NCBI RefSeq assembly: GCF_004352915.1
Contig: NZ_SJSY01000061.1
Location: 1 to 64,000 of the forward strand
Length of the DNA stretch: 64,000 bases
Reading direction: 5' to 3'
DNA from: Flavobacterium zhairuonense
GTDB lineage: Bacteria > Bacteroidota > Bacteroidia > Flavobacteriales > Flavobacteriaceae
Numbering within the stretch: the first letter of the stretch is position 1; each line of letters opens with the position of its first letter. Position numbers and translations under genes: made by a program. The notes under the pieces are model-generated. The model was not told where the DNA came from, did not search any database, and worked only from the letters and a program-made list of their open reading frames with translations. Positions 17,376 through 56,072 of the stretch are shown here, piece after piece.

Positions 17376-17388
17376 GCAACAATGTTGC
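17376..17388. repeat. GCAAC-N3-GTTGC palindrome between convergent genes
   Basis: GCAACAATGTTGC lies 11 bases after the ElaA-type stop. The same 13-mer is the core of the palindrome in front of merC (51555-51567). There is no T-run, so it is not an obvious terminator. Confidence 0.5.
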
Positions 17389-48439: not shown

Positions 48440-49093
48440 TTAAACCAGTTTCACAAACAAATTAGAAGCAATTTTATTCGAAATAGACAATTCGGCACCG
48501 TTGACTTTAATTTTTACCGATAAATCGAAAGATTCTTTAGAAAGGAATTCAATTTTAGAACCCAAAGCAATTCCTTGTTTGTCGAGATATTTCAAAAACT
48601 CTGACGAAGTATCTTTTACACCAACACAAACACCAGTTTGATTTTCTTCTAATTCAGATAAAAGCTGTTTTTCAATCTTAATAATTCGGCCGTTAGCATC
48701 TGGAATTGGATCGCCATGCGGATCTTCCGTAGGATTTCCAAGAAAATCATCCAAACGGTTAATCAATTGCTCCGATTTGATGTGCTCTAATTGTTCTGCA
48801 ATATCGTGAACTTCATCCCAGCTGAAGTTTAGTTTCTCCACTAAAAACACTTCCCAAAGGCGATGTTTTCTCACAATCATTTTCGCGGCCAACTTTCCAT
48901 TTTCAGTCAAAGAAACGCCTTGATATTTTTTATAATTTACTAAATCTTTTTCTGCCAGTTTTTTAAGCATATCTGTGACCGAGGAAGCTTTCGTTTCCAT
49001 GATTTCAGCAATAGCATTGGTGCTCACTTCAGTTTCCAAAGCAGCAGTTAGGTGATAGATCGATTTTAGGTAATTTTCTTCTGAAAAGGTCAT
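48440..49093 (-). CDS. mntR: DtxR/MntR family metal-dependent repressor
   Basis: Metal-responsive transcriptional regulator of 217 residues. The N-terminal winged helix (MTFSEENYLKSIYHL, then ASSVTDMLKKLAEKDLVNY) is followed by the dimerisation and metal domain (KHRLWEVFLVEKLNFSWDEVHDIAEQLEHI, with His and Glu ligands) and a C-terminal FeoA/SH3-like domain (about 145-217). Location right after the Nramp gene points to manganese control. A candidate operator lies at 51120-51137 in front of that gene. Confidence 0.88.
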   Translation of the reverse strand: MTFSEENYLKSIYHLTAALETEVSTNAIAEIMETKASSVTDMLKKLAEKDLVNYKKYQGVSLTENGKLAAKMIVRKHRLWEVFLVEKLNFSWDEVHDIAEQLEHIKSEQLINRLDDFLGNPTEDPHGDPIPDANGRIIKIEKQLLSELEENQTGVCVGVKDTSSEFLKYLDKQGIALGSKIEFLSKESFDLSVKIKVNGAELSISNKIASNLFVKLV

Positions 49094-49195: not shown

Positions 49196-51064
49196 TTATT
49201 TAACAATCAACAAAGGTATTGAAATTTTATGTCTCAATTTGTCTACCGTTGTTCCGAAAAGGATATCTTTTAGTCCGGTGTGGCCGTGGGTTCCCATTAC
49301 CAGAATGTCAAAATTGCCTTCGTTAATGATTTTTGGAATTACTTTGTTTGGTTTTCCGAAACCGAGTTCTGTTTTAATTTTGAAGCCTTTTTCGGACAGC
49401 ATTTCTTTATATTTCAGTAATAATTTCTCGTCAATCGTAGTTTCATGATCGTGAACGTGAACTCCGTACATTAATGCCCCGACGGTTTCTACAATGTGAA
49501 TGAGTGTATATTCAGTGTCAATACCGCCCAATTCAAAGGCTTTGTTTAATGCTGCTTCATCGGCTTTTGAGAAATCGACAGAAACCGCTATGTTTTTGAT
49601 ACTCTGGCTTTCTCTTGGTGTGAATTTAAGTTTTAGATGATGTGGTGAATGATTTATGGCTTTAGATTTGGCTTTTGCAATAAAAGGCTTGAAAACGATA
49701 TACAGCAATAATCCAGCAAATGCAAAAGCAAGAGGAACCACAGTAAGCCAAAGCACAGTTGGGTTGTTTGAGCTTTCAAGCCACGAAGTGATTTCGTCGT
49801 AAACTAATTTTGCATTTAATGAAACAATGATTGAAGCAATAATCCATGAAACAATTTGAGTGGTTTTAGAAATATGAAAACCATTCATTTTCGATTTATC
49901 GCTCACAAAATGAATTAGCGGAATAATAGCAAATCCCAATTGAAGACTCAGAATAACTTGGCTTAAAATCAATAATTTGCCCGTTACACTTTCGCCATAA
50001 ATATAAATTACAATTAATGCCGGAACAATTGCAATTAAACGAGTTATGATTCGGCGAACCCATGGTTGAATGCGTAAATGCAAATAACCTTCCATAACAA
50101 TTTGTCCTGCAAGAGTTCCTGTTACGGTCGAGCTTTGTCCTGCAGCGATTAACGCAACGGCAAATAAAATGGGCGCCCACTTTGTGCCTAACAAAGGCTC
50201 GAGAAATTGATGCGCGTCTTGTATTTCTGCAACTTCAAACATTCCGTTTTTATGGAAAGTTGCTGCCGCAAGGATTAAAATGGCTGCATTTACAAAGAAA
50301 GCCAGATTAAGTGCGATTGTAGAATCGATCAAATTGTATTTTAAAGCCTGTTTGATTCCGGCTGGTGTTCTGTCGAATTTTCTGGTTTGCACCAAAGAGG
50401 AATGCAGATAAAGATTATGAGGCATTACCGTCGCACCTATAATTCCGATGGCAATGTATAAGGCAGCAGAGTTTGGAATAGAAGGAACAAGTCCGCCGAT
50501 GATTTTATGAATTTCAGGTTCAGCAAAAATCATCTCAAAAATAAAAGAAAACCCAATTATCGCAACTAAAGCGATAATAAACGCTTCCATTTTGCGAATT
50601 CCTTTATTGATCAAAAACAAAAGAAGAAAAGTGTCGAGAACGGTAATTAAAACACCTTCAAGCAATGGAATTCCGAATAAAAGATTGATTCCAATAGCCA
50701 TTCCAAGTACTTCTGCCAAATCACAGGCAGCAATGGCAATTTCTGCTAAAAAGTATAAAATATAGTTGATGTATTTTGAATAGGTTTCGCGAGAAGCTTG
50801 TGCGAGGTCGCGTTGTGTGACAATTCCGAGGCGGGCGCTTAAACTCTGTAAAAGCAAAGCCATCAAATTACTCATCAACAAAACCCAAACTAAAGTATAG
50901 CCAAACTGACTTCCGCCAGCGATATCTGTTGCCCAGTTTCCCGGATCCATATATCCAACGCTTACTAAATAGGCCGGACCTAAAAATGCTAATATTTTCC
51001 TGAACCCTGTTTTTTTATGCTCTGTAGCAACCGATTGGTTTACTTCTTCTAAAGATTTGGTCAT
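49196..51064 (-). CDS. mntH: Nramp metal transporter fused to a UspA domain
   Basis: Inner-membrane H+-coupled Mn(II)/Fe(II) transporter of 622 residues. The Nramp part (about 20-460) has the metal-site motif DPGNWATD (40-47) and the second, MPHNLYLHSS, with eleven or so membrane helices. A soluble C-terminal extension (about 480-622) is a universal stress protein domain: IKNIAVSVDFSKADEAALNKA at its start and MGTHGHTGLKDILFGTTVDKL as the nucleotide-binding loop (G-x2-G-x9-G-S/T). The fusion suggests nucleotide-dependent control of transport. The promoter and an operator candidate lie upstream. Confidence 0.93.
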   Translation of the reverse strand: MTKSLEEVNQSVATEHKKTGFRKILAFLGPAYLVSVGYMDPGNWATDIAGGSQFGYTLVWVLLMSNLMALLLQSLSARLGIVTQRDLAQASRETYSKYINYILYFLAEIAIAACDLAEVLGMAIGINLLFGIPLLEGVLITVLDTFLLLFLINKGIRKMEAFIIALVAIIGFSFIFEMIFAEPEIHKIIGGLVPSIPNSAALYIAIGIIGATVMPHNLYLHSSLVQTRKFDRTPAGIKQALKYNLIDSTIALNLAFFVNAAILILAAATFHKNGMFEVAEIQDAHQFLEPLLGTKWAPILFAVALIAAGQSSTVTGTLAGQIVMEGYLHLRIQPWVRRIITRLIAIVPALIVIYIYGESVTGKLLILSQVILSLQLGFAIIPLIHFVSDKSKMNGFHISKTTQIVSWIIASIIVSLNAKLVYDEITSWLESSNNPTVLWLTVVPLAFAFAGLLLYIVFKPFIAKAKSKAINHSPHHLKLKFTPRESQSIKNIAVSVDFSKADEAALNKAFELGGIDTEYTLIHIVETVGALMYGVHVHDHETTIDEKLLLKYKEMLSEKGFKIKTELGFGKPNKVIPKIINEGNFDILVMGTHGHTGLKDILFGTTVDKLRHKISIPLLIVK

Positions 51065-51119: not shown

Positions 51120-51137
51120 TTTTAGGCAAGTCTAAAA
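51120..51137. promoter_or_regulatory. Candidate MntR operator
   Basis: TTTTAGGCAAGTCTAAAA is an inverted repeat of TTTTAG/CTAAAA with a 6-base centre, placed just upstream of the mntH -33 element. The half sites resemble DtxR-family boxes. The link to MntR is inferred. Confidence 0.5.
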
Positions 51138-51138
51138 C

Positions 51139-51531
51139 TTAAATGTTAGAATTTAAACAATTTGGGCACAATCCAGATAATGTAAAATTGATTTCTTTTA
51201 CTTTGTAATTATGAGGCATGATGTAACTCGGTTTTACGTTTTCGAGACACGTAATTTCATGACAGTTTTCACAGCTAAAATGAGCATGATTGTGTATGTG
51301 AACTCGTTGGTTAGAATGATTGCATTTTGCATATTTTACTGTTCCGTCAAGGTTCGAAATTTTGTGTACAATATCGTCGTTTACTAAACGGTCAAGGATT
51401 CTATAAATAGTGACGCGATCGCAAATGTTGTTCAATTGTTTTTGAATTTCGGTGTGCGATAGTGCGGTTCTGGATTTTTCAAAAACCTCTAAAACGGCCG
51501 TCTTTGCTGTGGTGTTACGTGTAGTTTTCAT
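51139..51531 (-). CDS. Fur-family metalloregulator
   Basis: Fur-superfamily repressor of 130 residues. A winged helix (RTALSHTEIQKQL, VTIYRILDRLV) is followed by the dimerisation domain with HIHNHAHFSCENC (metal-sensing His and Cys87, Cys90) and LCPNCL (Cys122, Cys125). The four cysteines form the structural zinc site. The lack of a close match to Fe-type Fur and the short length suggest a Zur-like sensor, without proof. It is divergent from merC, with a palindromic operator between them. Confidence 0.88.
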   Translation of the reverse strand: MKTTRNTTAKTAVLEVFEKSRTALSHTEIQKQLNNICDRVTIYRILDRLVNDDIVHKISNLDGTVKYAKCNHSNQRVHIHNHAHFSCENCHEITCLENVKPSYIMPHNYKVKEINFTLSGLCPNCLNSNI

Positions 51532-51548
51532 TTTTTAAAATATAAAAT

Positions 51549-51573
51549 TTAATCGCAACAATGTTGCGATTAA
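51549..51573. promoter_or_regulatory. Palindromic operator candidate between the Fur-type gene and merC
   Basis: A 25-bp near-perfect palindrome: TTAATCGCAAC (51549-51559), AAT, GTTGCGATTAA (51563-51573). Its right arm contains the -33 TTG of the merC promoter, so a bound repressor would block merC. A weaker copy, TGCAA-N5-TTGCA (51591-51605), overlaps the transcription start. Confidence 0.75.
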
Positions 51574-51592
51574 TAAAATTGTAATATATTTG
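51564..51592 (+). promoter_or_regulatory. Promoter of merC
   Basis: TTG (51564-51566), an 18-base spacer and TATATTTG (51585-51592) match the consensus well. Transcription should start near 51596. Confidence 0.7.
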
Positions 51593-51624
51593 CAACTAAA
51601 TTGCATTAAGCAAATCTACAAAAT

Positions 51625-51978
51625 ATGAAGAAAACAACAACATTTTTTTACGATATTTTAGGAATTTCAAGCGCGACATTTTGCCTCGTTCATTGTTTGA
51701 TTTTTCCTGTTCTGACAATCCTTCCTTTAGGGCTAATTCATAACCCAATAATCGATTTGATTTTTGCTTCTTTCGGTTTATTTGCAATAATCAAAATTAT
51801 GAAAAAATCGTCGCTTTTAGTGTCGACAATTTTGGTTGTTTCAATGAGTTTAATTTGGATCAGTATTTTGAGTGAAATAGTTTTTGAAATACATCTCGAT
51901 CTAATTTACTTTGGAGGAATCGGAATGATCATTGGGCATTTGCTGAATTACTATTTGCATAAAAAACAAAATCATTAA
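51625..51978 (+). CDS. MerC domain membrane protein
   Basis: Integral membrane protein of 117 residues with four hydrophobic helices and the MerC family pattern: ATFCLVHCLIFPVL with Cys20, His23 and Cys24 in the first helix. MerC proteins carry metal ions (classically Hg) across the membrane. No mer operon genes (merA, merP) are near. In flavobacteria this family usually sits next to a Fur-type regulator, as here, so a role in another thiophilic metal such as zinc or copper is more likely. Confidence 0.88.
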   Translation: MKKTTTFFYDILGISSATFCLVHCLIFPVLTILPLGLIHNPIIDLIFASFGLFAIIKIMKKSSLLVSTILVVSMSLIWISILSEIVFEIHLDLIYFGGIGMIIGHLLNYYLHKKQNH

Positions 51979-51989
51979 AAATTGTCATT

Positions 51990-52895
51990 ATGAAGCAGAA
52001 GAATTTTGATGTCATTATCATTGGTGGAAGCTACAGCGGACTTTCAGCCGCTATGAGTTTAGGACGTTCGCTTCGTCAGGTTTTGGTTATTGACAGCGGT
52101 TTGCCTTGCAACAGACAAACACCATATTCACATAATTTTATAACACAAGACGGTGAAAAGCCTGCTGTTATTTCGGCGAAAGCCAAATTACAAATTGATC
52201 TTTATAAAACCGTTCATTTTTATAAGGGACTTGCGGTAAAAGCAATCAAGAAAGAAAATGAATTTGAGGTTTCAACCGAATCCGGCGAAGTTTTCAATTC
52301 CAGAAAAATCTTGTTCGCAAGTGGCGTAAAAGATTTGTTTCCAGAAATAAAAGGTTTTGCAGATTGTTGGGGAATTTCGGTTTTGCATTGTCCGTATTGT
52401 CATGGTTATGAAGTGAAAAATGAAAAAACAGCGATTATTGCCAATGGCGAAATGGCTTTTGAATACGCAAAACTAATCTCAAACTGGACAAAAGATTTGC
52501 AATTATGTACAAATGGAAAATCAACTTTGACTTTGGAACAAACTCAGATTCTGAAGAAAAAAGATATTCAAATTTTTGAAGATGAAATAGACTCGTTTGA
52601 ACACAATGACGGATATGTTTCAAATATTATTTTCAGAAATAAAGAAAAAATAGAAGTGAAGGCGATTTATAGCAAGCCACCATTTGAACAACATTGCGCG
52701 TTGCCAGCGTATTTAGGCTGTGACATAAACGAACAAGGTTTGTTAAAAGTTGATGCAATGCAAAAAACAAATATCCCAGGAATTTATGCGAGTGGGGATT
52801 GCACAACGCAAATGCGATCTGTTGCTATTGCGGTTTCTACAGGTTCTTTCGCCGGAGCTGTAATTAATAAAGAACTTATTGATGAAGATTTTTAG
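51990..52895 (+). CDS. Thioredoxin reductase-like flavoprotein
   Basis: NAD(P)H/FAD oxidoreductase of 301 residues. The FAD-binding motif is GGSYSGLSAAMSLG (12-25), the redox-active pair Cys134-Cys137 lies in HCPYCHGYE, and GIYASGDCTTQ closes the FAD domain. The HCPYCHGYE form is typical of small TrxR-like proteins found beside metal or alkylation genes. The NADPH-binding motif (ANGEMAFEYAKLI) is degenerate compared with GGGDSA-type TrxB. It starts 12 bases after merC and is cotranscribed with it. Confidence 0.88.
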   Translation: MKQKNFDVIIIGGSYSGLSAAMSLGRSLRQVLVIDSGLPCNRQTPYSHNFITQDGEKPAVISAKAKLQIDLYKTVHFYKGLAVKAIKKENEFEVSTESGEVFNSRKILFASGVKDLFPEIKGFADCWGISVLHCPYCHGYEVKNEKTAIIANGEMAFEYAKLISNWTKDLQLCTNGKSTLTLEQTQILKKKDIQIFEDEIDSFEHNDGYVSNIIFRNKEKIEVKAIYSKPPFEQHCALPAYLGCDINEQGLLKVDAMQKTNIPGIYASGDCTTQMRSVAIAVSTGSFAGAVINKELIDEDF

Positions 52896-52911
52896 CAATG
52901 CGCTGAAAATC

Positions 52912-53048
52912 TCTCGCAAAGTCGCTAAGTCGCAAAGAGAAATTAAACCATGTAAGTCATATAAGATAATTTAAGCGTGGCTTGAAATGAACTTATATGA
53001 CTTATATGGTTTAGAAAAAAAACTTCGCGTCTCTGCGTCTTTGCGAGA
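52912..53048. repeat. Nested double inverted repeat
   Basis: The outer arms 52912-52937 and 53023-53048 (TCTCGCAAAG.. with ..CTTTGCGAGA) belong to the CGCAAAG family. Inside them a second pair, 52945-52964 and 52993-53012, matches over 20 bases with one mismatch (AAACCATGTAAGTCATATAA). The result is one long cruciform-like hairpin made of two unrelated families. Confidence 0.85.
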
Positions 53049-53164
53049 TAAAAAACAGAAACTTATTTAATTTTTCTTCAAAGGCAGAACAAAAATCTAA
53101 CACATTGAATCCAATCCGTTTAAAATTATTGTAATCAGAAACAATATTTGTCAAATTTAATTTT

Positions 53165-53172
53165 TAGTTTTG
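53165..53172 (+). promoter_or_regulatory. -7 element of the TonB receptor gene
   Basis: TAGTTTTG lies 22 bases before ATG 53194. A TTG 14 bases upstream is too close to be a standard -33. Confidence 0.45.
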
Positions 53173-53193
53173 TCTAAATTTAATTTTATAATA

Positions 53194-55446
53194 ATGAAAT
53201 ATTTATTTTTGACAATATTAATAATTTCTGCTACGCGCCTTTATTCGCAAAATATCTCGGGAAAAATTGACGGATTAATTCTTGATGGACAAGAAATTAA
53301 TATCAGTCTATTAAACACAAACTTTAAAACGCAAACCGATTCAGTTGGATTTTATAAATTAGAAAATGTTCCAAAAGGCATTTATAAAATAGTTGTCAAA
53401 TCAGTTGGATTTAAAACGATAAATCAGAAAATTTCGGTTTTAGAAAATCAAAACTTAATTCTTGATTTTGAATTAACGGAAGATCAAAATGAACTTAATG
53501 AAGTTGTAGTTTCAGGAACTTTAAAACCTGTAAAAAGATTAGAAAGTGCTGTTCCGGTTGAGGTTTATTCGCCTGTTTTCTTCAAAAAAAATCCAACGCC
53601 AAGCATTTATGATGCTTTGCAAAACATAAACGGTGTTCGTCCGCAGTTGAATTGTGGTGTTTGTAATACGGGCGATATACATATAAACGGATTGGAAGGC
53701 CCATATACATTGGTGATGATCGACGGAATGCCAATTGTGAGTAGTCTTTCGACGGTTTATGGTTTATCTGGAATTCCGAATTCTTTGGTGGAAAGAATTG
53801 AAATCGTAAAAGGTCCTGCTTCGTCTCTTTACGGAAGTGAAGCTGTTGGAGGTTTGATCAACATTATTACTAAGAACACAACAAATGCGCCGACTTTTTC
53901 TGCAGATTATTTTACGACAACATATTTTGAAAACAATCTTGATTTGGGAGTAAAATTCAATATTGGAAGAAAAGCGACTTCTCTTCTCGGAATTAATTAT
54001 TTCAATTACAATCAAGTTATTGATAAAGACAAAGACAATTTTACGGATGTGACGCTTTCTGATCGAATTTCAGTTTTTAATAAATGGAGTTTTCTGCGAA
54101 ATAATAATCGGCTTTTTACGGTTGCGGTACGCGGAATGTATGAAGACCGCTGGGGCGGAGATGTGCGTTGGGAGAAGAAATTCCGCGGAGGCGATGAAAT
54201 TTACGGCGAAAGTATTTATACCAAAAGAGCCGAATTAATAGGAAGTTATCAATTGCCATTTGAAGAAAAACTAATGCTTTCGTTCTCTGGAAATGTGCAT
54301 TATCAAGACAGCCGTTATGGAACGACTTCGTACATCGCGAATCAGAAAATTGGTTTTCTGCAATTGACTTGGGATAAAAAAATAGGACGAAATGATTTAT
54401 TGGCCGGAATCGCAAGTCGATATTCGTATTATGACGATAATACAACGGCAACCAAAGAAGCTGAAAGCACTTGGCTTCCGGGGATTTTTGTTCAGGACGA
54501 AATAACATTTTCTCCAAAAAGCCAAGTTTTGCTAGGAATGCGTTATGACTATAATTCGATTCACGGTTCTATTTTTACGCCAAGATTTGCGTATCGATTC
54601 AAAGCCAATGAAAACACGATTTTCAGATTAAATGCCGGAACTGGGTTTCGAGTTGTGAATTTATTTACCGAAGATCACGCCGCGTTGACTGGTTCAAGAG
54701 ATGTTGTAATTGCAAACGATTTGAAACCTGAGAAATCGGTAAATGTGAATTTAAATTACATTCAGAAAATCAACTTTGGCAACGGAACGTTTATGGGCAT
54801 CGAAACAACGGCTTTTTATACTCGTTTTAGCAATAAAATCATTTCTGATTATGAAAGTGACCCAAACAAAATTATTTACGATAATATCGACGGATATGCG
54901 TTGAGTCAGGGAATCAGTACGAATGTTGATCTTAATTTTCCATCGGGCTTAAAATTTATTGTTGGGGCAACGGTTTTGGACAATAAAAATGTGCAAAACG
55001 GAATTTCTGAAAGACCTTTTTTAACGGAGAATTTTACTGCGACCTGGAGCGTTTCATATAAAATTCAGCCATGGAATTTAGTGCTTGATTATACCGGAAA
55101 TGTTTACAGTCCGATGAAATTGCCTTTGTTGAGCGAAACAGATCCGCGAAGTCCAAATTCGCCTTGGTATAGCATTCAGAATATTCAGTTTACCTTTACC
55201 GGCTGGAAGAATTTTGAGCTTTATGGTGGTATCAAAAATTTGCTGAATTTTACGCCAATGCAAAATAATCCGTTTTTGATTTCGAGAACAAATGATCCTT
55301 TTGATAAAAATGTGCAATATGATTCGGCCGGAAAAGTTTTGGTAACGCCTGATAATCCTTATGGTTTGACTTTTGATACGACTTATGTTTATGGACAAAA
55401 TCAAACAATTCGAGGATTTTTAGGATTGCGATATACTTTGCGATAA
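53194..55446 (+). CDS. TonB-dependent outer-membrane receptor
   Basis: Ligand-gated outer-membrane transporter of 750 residues from ATG 53194 (signal peptide MKYLFLTILIISATRLYSQ). A carboxypeptidase-regulatory-like domain (about 20-95) precedes the TonB box region ELNEVVVSGT. The plug has the motif NCGVCNTGDIHINGLEGPYT with Cys154 and Cys157, then IDGMPIVSSLSTVYG and VKGPASSLYGSEAVGG. The barrel follows, ending IRGFLGLRYTLR with the final aromatic strand. The CxxC in the plug is unusual and may bind metal or be reduced by the thioredoxin encoded next. The ligand is unknown. Confidence 0.93.
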   Translation: MKYLFLTILIISATRLYSQNISGKIDGLILDGQEINISLLNTNFKTQTDSVGFYKLENVPKGIYKIVVKSVGFKTINQKISVLENQNLILDFELTEDQNELNEVVVSGTLKPVKRLESAVPVEVYSPVFFKKNPTPSIYDALQNINGVRPQLNCGVCNTGDIHINGLEGPYTLVMIDGMPIVSSLSTVYGLSGIPNSLVERIEIVKGPASSLYGSEAVGGLINIITKNTTNAPTFSADYFTTTYFENNLDLGVKFNIGRKATSLLGINYFNYNQVIDKDKDNFTDVTLSDRISVFNKWSFLRNNNRLFTVAVRGMYEDRWGGDVRWEKKFRGGDEIYGESIYTKRAELIGSYQLPFEEKLMLSFSGNVHYQDSRYGTTSYIANQKIGFLQLTWDKKIGRNDLLAGIASRYSYYDDNTTATKEAESTWLPGIFVQDEITFSPKSQVLLGMRYDYNSIHGSIFTPRFAYRFKANENTIFRLNAGTGFRVVNLFTEDHAALTGSRDVVIANDLKPEKSVNVNLNYIQKINFGNGTFMGIETTAFYTRFSNKIISDYESDPNKIIYDNIDGYALSQGISTNVDLNFPSGLKFIVGATVLDNKNVQNGISERPFLTENFTATWSVSYKIQPWNLVLDYTGNVYSPMKLPLLSETDPRSPNSPWYSIQNIQFTFTGWKNFELYGGIKNLLNFTPMQNNPFLISRTNDPFDKNVQYDSAGKVLVTPDNPYGLTFDTTYVYGQNQTIRGFLGLRYTLR

Positions 55447-55468
55447 ATGAAATAATGCATTCATAATT

Positions 55469-55569
55469 AAACTGGACTGAAGTCCAACTCTACAACATAA
55501 ATCGAGCCTCTGGCTCTTTAAGTTCCAACGGAACGAACTATTTTGTAGAGCTGGACTTCAGTCCAGTTT
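55469..55569. repeat. Inverted repeat enclosing two REP cores
   Basis: The 27-base arms 55469-55495 and 55543-55569 pair with one mismatch (core AAACTGGACTGAAGTCCA). Inside are two 13-bp palindromes, GAGCCTCTGGCTC (55504-55516) and GTTCCAACGGAAC (55522-55534). They have the same architecture and flanks (ATC before, GAACTATT after) as the REP cores near the RAYT gene. Confidence 0.85.
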
Positions 55570-55607
55570 ACTTCAAACAAAGAAAAATTGACAAAAAACA
55601 AATCAAA

Positions 55608-56072
55608 ATGAAAAAGCTATTTCTATTAATCTTCATCTTTGGGATTTCGGCGACAGGTTTCTGTCAGCTGAAAAGCAATTCTTTTGAGGAAATTGATAGC
55701 TTGCAGCAGATTCAAAAACGAAAAATAATTGTTTTTATTCATACCGATTGGTGTCAGTTTTGCCAAAGAATGAAAGCGACAACATTCAAAAACAAAGAAA
55801 TCATCGAAAAACTTAATTCAGAATTTTATTTCATTGATTTTAATGCCGAGGAAAAACGAGATATTACTTTTCATAATCAAACTTTCAAATACAAGCCTTC
55901 CGGAAATAATATTGGTGTTCACGAATTGGCTTTACAGCTTGGCACAATTAATAATCAAATTGTTTATCCGGTTTTATGCGTTTTGAATGAAAAAAATGAA
56001 ATTATACTGCAATACAACAACTATCTGAGTCCGAAGGATTTTAAAATTCTTTTGGAAGAACTTCTTAAATAA
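55608..56072 (+). CDS. Periplasmic thioredoxin-family protein
   Basis: Exported thioredoxin-fold protein of 154 residues with a signal peptide (MKKLFLLIFIFGISATGFCQ). The active site is DWCQFCQRMK (Cys49, Cys52), a variant of CxxC common in thioredoxin_7/DUF255-like proteins. A cis-Pro follows in VYPVLCVL. It lies 161 bases after the TonB receptor gene and may be part of the same locus, perhaps keeping the receptor plug or the substrate thiols reduced. Confidence 0.88.
   Translation: MKKLFLLIFIFGISATGFCQLKSNSFEEIDSLQQIQKRKIIVFIHTDWCQFCQRMKATTFKNKEIIEKLNSEFYFIDFNAEEKRDITFHNQTFKYKPSGNNIGVHELALQLGTINNQIVYPVLCVLNEKNEIILQYNNYLSPKDFKILLEELLK

Follow-up and report, generated by a model that had tools for sequence, protein, structure and literature searches.

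In Stenotrophomonas maltophilia, the adjacent genes orf2357-orf2358, which encode a TonB-dependent receptor with a CQNC-type plug motif and a thioredoxin-fold protein (pTFP), are preceded by an MntR box and situated beside mntR and mntH (PMC13217887, 2026). As far as the accessible part of that report goes, receptor and thioredoxin-fold genes are derepressed in an mntR mutant, induction by manganese/iron limitation is among the defining traits of the module, the pTFP is proposed by the authors as a possible reductant of the plug motif, and synteny of the CQNC module extends over Lysobacterales, Sphingomonadales and Opitutales, with the term 'Bacteroid' absent from the main text (PMC13217887). 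TonB-dependent outer-membrane manganese uptake has equally been assigned to MnoT of Burkholderia thailandensis, which acts with TseM, a protein secreted by the type VI secretion system (as cited in PMC13217887). Here, a locus of Flavobacterium zhairuonense is considered that is located in a window of 64,000 nucleotides (contig NZ_SJSY01000061.1, positions 1 to 64,000) from a 5.25-Mb genome assembled into 76 contigs, and in which mntR and mntH are found upstream of genes for a TonB-dependent receptor with two plug cysteines and a thioredoxin-fold protein. As judged from the DNA and its comparison among relatives, the locus probably encodes a TonB importer that is repressed by MntR and takes up manganese, or manganese and iron, with plug thiols plausibly kept reduced by thioredoxin.

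The receptor gene (53194 (ATG) to 55446, forward strand) encodes a CarboxypepD_reg-like N-terminal domain, a plug and a barrel, supported by Pfam matches to plug and barrel and by the predicted structure, and the motif Cys154-Gly-Val-Cys157 is read directly within the plug (53653 to 53664, forward strand). Its distribution was followed in two samples. Among 295 sampled genomes of the bacterial class, one of them that of the window, a relative was recovered at E <= 1e-60 in 114 genomes, 11 of which, by hand count from the listing, hold only a sister receptor of 27-31% identity, so that 103 of 295 sampled genomes, about a third, carry the family, which is thus widespread in the class. Flanking DNA was fetched for 78 listed matches, namely 72 family members, which come from 71 genomes besides the window's, and 6 receptors of the sister family; together with the window this class set comprises 73 receptors from 72 genomes and covers 72 of the 103 receptor genomes. 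The named set consists of the best 80 of at least 587 confirmed relatives in genome_contigs; it is mostly composed of Flavobacteriaceae and biased toward close relatives (among the matches listed, the nearest are Flavobacterium receptors of 89-91% identity), which makes the class set the fairer one. Some contigs of the named set end near the receptor, with less than 300 nt upstream in L202, L222 and L239.

A CxxC motif is present in the plug of all 73 class receptors, down to 36% identity, and in 79 of the 80 named ones, the remaining receptor, L202, being truncated before the plug. The pair is therefore not a product of chance; the residues in between vary among relatives (CNVC, CNIC, CSVC and CAVC besides CGVC in the window), and the motif is missing in 6/6 receptors of the sister family (26-29% identity) and in 7/7 aligned paralogues from the window's own genome. 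Modelling returned a plug-barrel fold (mean predicted local distance difference test score, pLDDT, 83.8; predicted template modelling score, pTM, 0.79), in which Cys154 and Cys157 are predicted to lie in a loop between the plug strands of residues 148-152 and 160-164. The truncated L202, which has 80% receptor identity, stems from a contig labelled as a Klebsiella pneumoniae metagenome-assembled genome, probably a mislabelled bin. A search of plasmids matched the receptor in 1368 records, all below 60% identity; the 40 listed show 21-30%, with no family member seen among those 40. As to the sister receptors (L111-L116), a protein of about 115 amino acids directly precedes the receptor in 4/6 loci and resembles by eye a heavy-metal-associated domain; the one checked had no Pfam match.

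The promoters of mntH and of the receptor have the pattern TTTAG-N6-CTAAA in common, spotted by eye and exact at both sites (TTTAGGCAAGTCTAAA, 51121 to 51136, before mntH; TTTAGTTTTGTCTAAA, 53163 to 53178, before the receptor). When the shorter TTAG-N6-CTAA was sought within -250 to +30 of the start, it was found in 66/73 class receptor promoters as opposed to 23/1010 other genes of the fetched loci, in 0/6 sister-receptor promoters and, upon dinucleotide shuffling of the 73 promoters (200 rounds), in a mean of 0.66 and a maximum of 4/73. Presence of the box in 26/29 class receptors without mntR or mntH within 6 kb indicates that it accompanies the receptor itself and not just a neighbouring gene. 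Equally, of the 77 named loci in which 300 nt or more of upstream sequence is available, 75 possess the box, as do 27/31 NRAMP upstream regions, which are often the receptor's own intergenic region and hence not all independent. The window's receptor box contains TAGTTTTG (53165 to 53172), which agrees with TAnnTTTG, the sigma-A -7 element that has been mapped in Flavobacterium psychrophilum, according to the part of the source available (PMC9723704). The same element is fitted by TAGNTTTG, which occurs inside 60/77 named-set boxes and 10/66 class-set boxes. With a -7-like element inside the box, a repressor sitting on it should cover the predicted promoter. An own start of transcription is most likely for the receptor, as a dispersed repeat is located upstream: the hairpin that the original prediction had seen at 52912 is real, though its arms (52912 to 53048, between receptor and upstream genes) belong to a repeat family with 36 listed genome matches, own copies included, and 0 for the reversed pattern. 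A second inverted repeat of a dispersed family (55465 to 55573), with 23 listed matches, own copies included, and equally 0 for the reversed pattern, is found between receptor and thioredoxin. The first repeat contains TCGCAAAGTCGC units and the second CTGGACTNNAGTCCA, which in L184 (8263-8765) recurs in several copies at approximately 135-nt spacing, again between receptor and thioredoxin. Taken together, the evidence on the DNA strongly supports control of the receptor by MntR, which, by conservation, is very probable. Surroundings were read for 18 of 41 other sites of the box in the genome; 16 are inside open reading frames of at least 100 amino acids, some perhaps spurious, and 2 are intergenic. 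One of these sites (C59:215954; L259, about 2055), inside an open reading frame, is 18 nt before a 114-amino-acid HopJ-family gene (Pfam 2.3e-49) and might mark a further MntR target.

The neighbourhood of the receptor points to manganese. In the window, mntR (48440 to 49093, reverse strand) encodes a DtxR-family regulator with a C-terminal FeoA domain, the sole PF02742 match and only DtxR-family match of the genome by profile search, and mntH (49196 to 51064, reverse strand), by Pfam, an Mn(II) transporter of the NRAMP type that carries a universal stress protein (Usp) domain at its C terminus; downstream of the receptor follows a thioredoxin-fold protein with the motif CQFC and a hydrophobic N terminus (55608 to 56072, forward strand), probably periplasmic. 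Counting genes within 6 kb as linked, by profile search in the class set, and taking thioredoxin frames at about +2700 (class set) or +2450 (named set), which overlap the receptor end, as directly downstream, MntR is linked in 43/73 class loci and directly divergent upstream of the receptor in 36/73; of the same 73 loci, thioredoxin is linked in 20, ZIP in 16, NRAMP in 10, Fur-type regulator in 4, MerC in 4 and flavoprotein in 3. The corresponding numbers for the 80 named loci are 70 for MntR, 42 for thioredoxin, 31 for NRAMP, 30 for ZIP (an assignment checked by Pfam on one member), 18 for Fur-type regulator, 16 for MerC and 15 for flavoprotein. Linked thioredoxins keep their CxxC (19/19 in the class set, 42/42 in the named set). 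Receptor and thioredoxin thus look like companions of the mntH and mntR genes just upstream and not of the Fur-MerC-flavoprotein genes in between. The regulator itself has DtxR domains and an E-x-x-E-H metal site, with E100 conserved in 40/40 and E103 and H104 in 38/40 MntR proteins of the loci, which correspond by motif spacing to E99, E102 and H103 of Bacillus subtilis MntR; residue labels in the consulted part of the literature place C102 of DtxR at the E99 position (PMC4805248). Its selectivity is likely, but not certainly, for manganese, because position 7 (matched by spacing) is Asn, neither the manganese-type nor the iron-type residue, the compared residues being Asp8 in B. subtilis MntR and Met10 in DtxR (PMC4805248). 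Since 243/295 class genomes carry a DtxR-family gene, having one does not by itself weigh heavily.

A mechanism can be outlined from these elements. Upon sufficient Mn(II), MntR would bind the TTTAGN6CTAAA boxes of mntH and of the receptor, and transcription of the latter would stop through overlap of the box with the predicted -7 promoter element; upon shortage, receptor, thioredoxin and MntH would be made, the receptor would take Mn(II) or a manganese (or manganese/iron) complex across the outer membrane at the expense of TonB energy, and MntH, or ZIP or NRAMP in relatives, would perform the inner-membrane step. Of this outline, the gene linkage, the conserved box, the invariant cysteines and the predicted fold are observed; repression, identity of the metal, transport and redox chemistry are inferred. 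Manganese is considered the probable main cargo, with iron as its rival. The thiols of Cys154 and Cys157 might contribute to substrate binding or constitute a redox switch, with thioredoxin keeping them reduced; that the pair is a ligand or a switch serviced by thioredoxin is put forward with reserve, as a possibility that may well fail. Of the two, the switch is favoured because binding of Mn(II) to thiolates would be chemically unusual. A receptor working only with reduced thiols would make outer-membrane manganese import respond to oxidative conditions, and the extension of this thought to the whole family, in which the invariant pair and a dedicated periplasmic thioredoxin would form a redox gate for manganese entry under MntR across Bacteroidia, is a tentative proposal only.

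Several points weigh against such a manganese importer. Mn(II) is a hard ion, for which thiolates are odd ligands. The second repeat parts receptor and thioredoxin in the window, and most class loci and roughly half of the named ones have no linked thioredoxin; 29/73 class receptors are without mntR or mntH within 6 kb. At least four receptor genomes (G106, G120, G131, G152) have no DtxR-family match at all, 32 further no-match genomes being outside the listing, and the receptor of G131 (L070) is one of the three unlinked receptors without the strict box. Upstream of the receptor, no -33 element was recognized by eye at the usual distance. TTTAGN6CTAAA is not enriched genome-wide (43 sites versus 79 for the reversed pattern) and was rejected as a genome-wide marker; the weight of the box is that of its position and conservation, not of its frequency. 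With respect to the regulator, Asn occupies position 7 in 37/40 MntR proteins, NCBIfam MntR models match the window protein only below their cut-offs, and PgMntR of Porphyromonas gingivalis binds Fe(II) as well as Mn(II), as stated in the part of the report at hand (PMC4805248).

The last points lead to iron, as Fe(II) or as a ferric complex, being the cargo of the same MntR-controlled receptor, with the DtxR-family protein sensing iron or both metals. Besides Asn at position 7 and the dual binding by PgMntR, the FeoA domain on MntR and the presence of siderophore receptors among the closest solved structures speak for iron; on the other hand, the conserved neighbours are NRAMP-type MntH and ZIP, the selectivity position (by spacing) is Glu, not Cys, in all 40 MntR proteins, and a second Fur-family protein of the genome, which scores higher than the one in the window, could serve iron, so that we regard an iron receptor as rather unlikely. 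A structural disulfide or folding checkpoint formed by the plug CxxC, with the thioredoxin acting in assembly and not in transport, would be compatible with the manganese importer except for its redox step. The motif is indeed invariant even where no thioredoxin is linked, but the predicted position of the pair in a loop between plug strands and a sister family that manages without CxxC make such a purely structural role doubtful.

More remote alternatives emanate from the genes between mntH and the receptor. These encode a Fur-family regulator, probably Zur-like, with CENC and CPNC (51139 to 51531, reverse strand), a MerC-family membrane protein (51625 to 51978, forward strand; Pfam MerC 42.6 bits against a cut-off of 27.6) and a TrxR-like flavoprotein with CPYC (51990 to 52895, forward strand). 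The original prediction had joined them with receptor and thioredoxin into a five-gene, Fur-controlled system that would import a thiophilic metal, or such a metal complexed by a thiol, and free it by redox chemistry. Its description was accurate: the open reading frames and the motifs NCGVC, CPYC and CQFC were confirmed, Pfam supports all five genes, a cysteine pair can be read in every protein, and the palindrome between fur and merC is real (25 nt as 12+1+12, 51549 to 51573). What remains of the proposal is a TonB receptor, probably under metal control, whose plug CxxC is conserved and whose neighbour has a thioredoxin fold; the five-gene unit, control of the receptor by Fur and a thiophilic cargo found no support. 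While the cysteines proved conserved, the five-gene order is restricted to 15/80 named loci, some with an extra gene in between, and MerC is absent from 64/80 named and 69/73 class loci (a few contigs end near the receptor); receptors with plug cysteines regularly occur without MerC or thioredoxin, as both are missing from many CxxC-receptor loci, which is the very observation that the original prediction had named as its refutation. An MntR-type box of its own precedes the receptor, the conserved neighbours are MntR, NRAMP and ZIP, and where Flavobacterium loci fall outside the cassette-bearing clade, receptor-thioredoxin stands directly next to a divergent mntH with no cassette (for example L192, L200, L203, L204, L213, L214, L228), which renders the five-gene system highly improbable. 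The decisive genes, mntR and mntH, and the two exact boxes had been outside its scope.

From the out-of-clade loci, insertion of a cassette between mntH and the receptor is the simplest history. Fur-MerC adjoins the receptor in 16 named loci (L176-L191; L180 without flavoprotein), which are the highest-identity named loci having upstream sequence, with at least 77% receptor identity, all close Flavobacterium relatives; L202 begins inside the receptor, and in one of the class MerC loci, L121, Fur-MerC is 3.4 kb off with unrelated genes between. A CobW-type GTPase, a class partly linked to zinc homeostasis in the available part of the source (PMC2770081), is located between MerC and flavoprotein in 6/16 cassette loci (once broken into two frames; Pfam on one), which suggests a Zur-type zinc cassette; the best NCBIfam match of the Fur protein is PerR, with Zur third and all far under cut-off. 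Apparent mentions of MerC in the COG0523 paper turned out to be the name Merchant. Conservation of the fur-merC gap in the 16 loci and the window includes the core of the 25-nt palindrome beside fur (14/14 shown whole) and a second, imperfect TTGCAAC-type palindrome beside merC (51590 to 51605; 17/17). Elsewhere, 13/30 MerC loci have a Fur-type gene close by, and GCAAC-type palindromes, sought as three patterns anywhere in the locus with no control, occur in 15/30. As a genome-wide regulon marker, GCAACNNNGTTGC was rejected (5 sites versus 4 for the reversed control in the own genome); its site on C59 is inside a coding gene read as glycyl-tRNA synthetase, and those at 17376 and 22425 of the window are near genes without evident metal link. 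The Fur-MerC-flavoprotein genes are thus probably a separate, zinc-related cassette inserted in one Flavobacterium clade. A zinc receptor drawn into the Zur regulon by this cassette would be in line with its retention in the 16 closest named relatives having upstream sequence and with the CobW-type GTPases, but is very unlikely, as no exact GCAACNNNGTTGC site of the genome is at the receptor promoter and all 16 cassette loci have kept the MntR-type box.

Returning to the manganese importer, no manganese TonB receptor from Bacteroidota came up in the listed part of the literature searches, although one may have been published; equally, the accessible text of the PgMntR paper has no mention of 'TonB' (PMC4805248). 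The locus can offer a candidate outer-membrane manganese route of Bacteroidota as a testable gene family with a regulator, a predicted binding site and two residues. Should transport turn out to be gated by the thiol pair, TonB receptors would be shown to be controlled in a new way. By structure comparison, the receptor model is closest, in near-tied rows, to Cir (Z-score 36.9, root-mean-square deviation 2.9 over 540 residues), which is without a cysteine at the CxxC in the alignment, and to BtuB (35.7, 2.9 over 537 residues), each at approximately 20% identity, with the metal importers OprC for copper and ZnuD for zinc lower in the list (30.2 and 30.3). OprC employs a Cys and a Met of its plug. 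By description, MnoT resembles the role proposed here as a TonB-dependent manganese receptor, but acts together with TseM. PgMntR is, like the window's MntR, a Bacteroidota DtxR-family manganese regulator with FeoA, but differs in that its FeoA domains are twin and its site is Asp19/Cys108 (PMC4805248). The closest published system, as far as its report is accessible, is the CQNC module of S. maltophilia, in which likewise a CxxC-plug receptor with an MntR-type box precedes a CxxC-bearing thioredoxin-fold gene, next to mntR/mntH (PMC13217887). Different from this module, the window and its relatives have CGVC or CNVC in place of CQNC, and many relatives harbour a ZIP transporter beside mntR. 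The likeness, drawn from description, is one of locus anatomy in another phylum with a different motif; if the proposed redox gating is true, both together might represent a general class of redox-gated outer-membrane manganese importers extending over several phyla.

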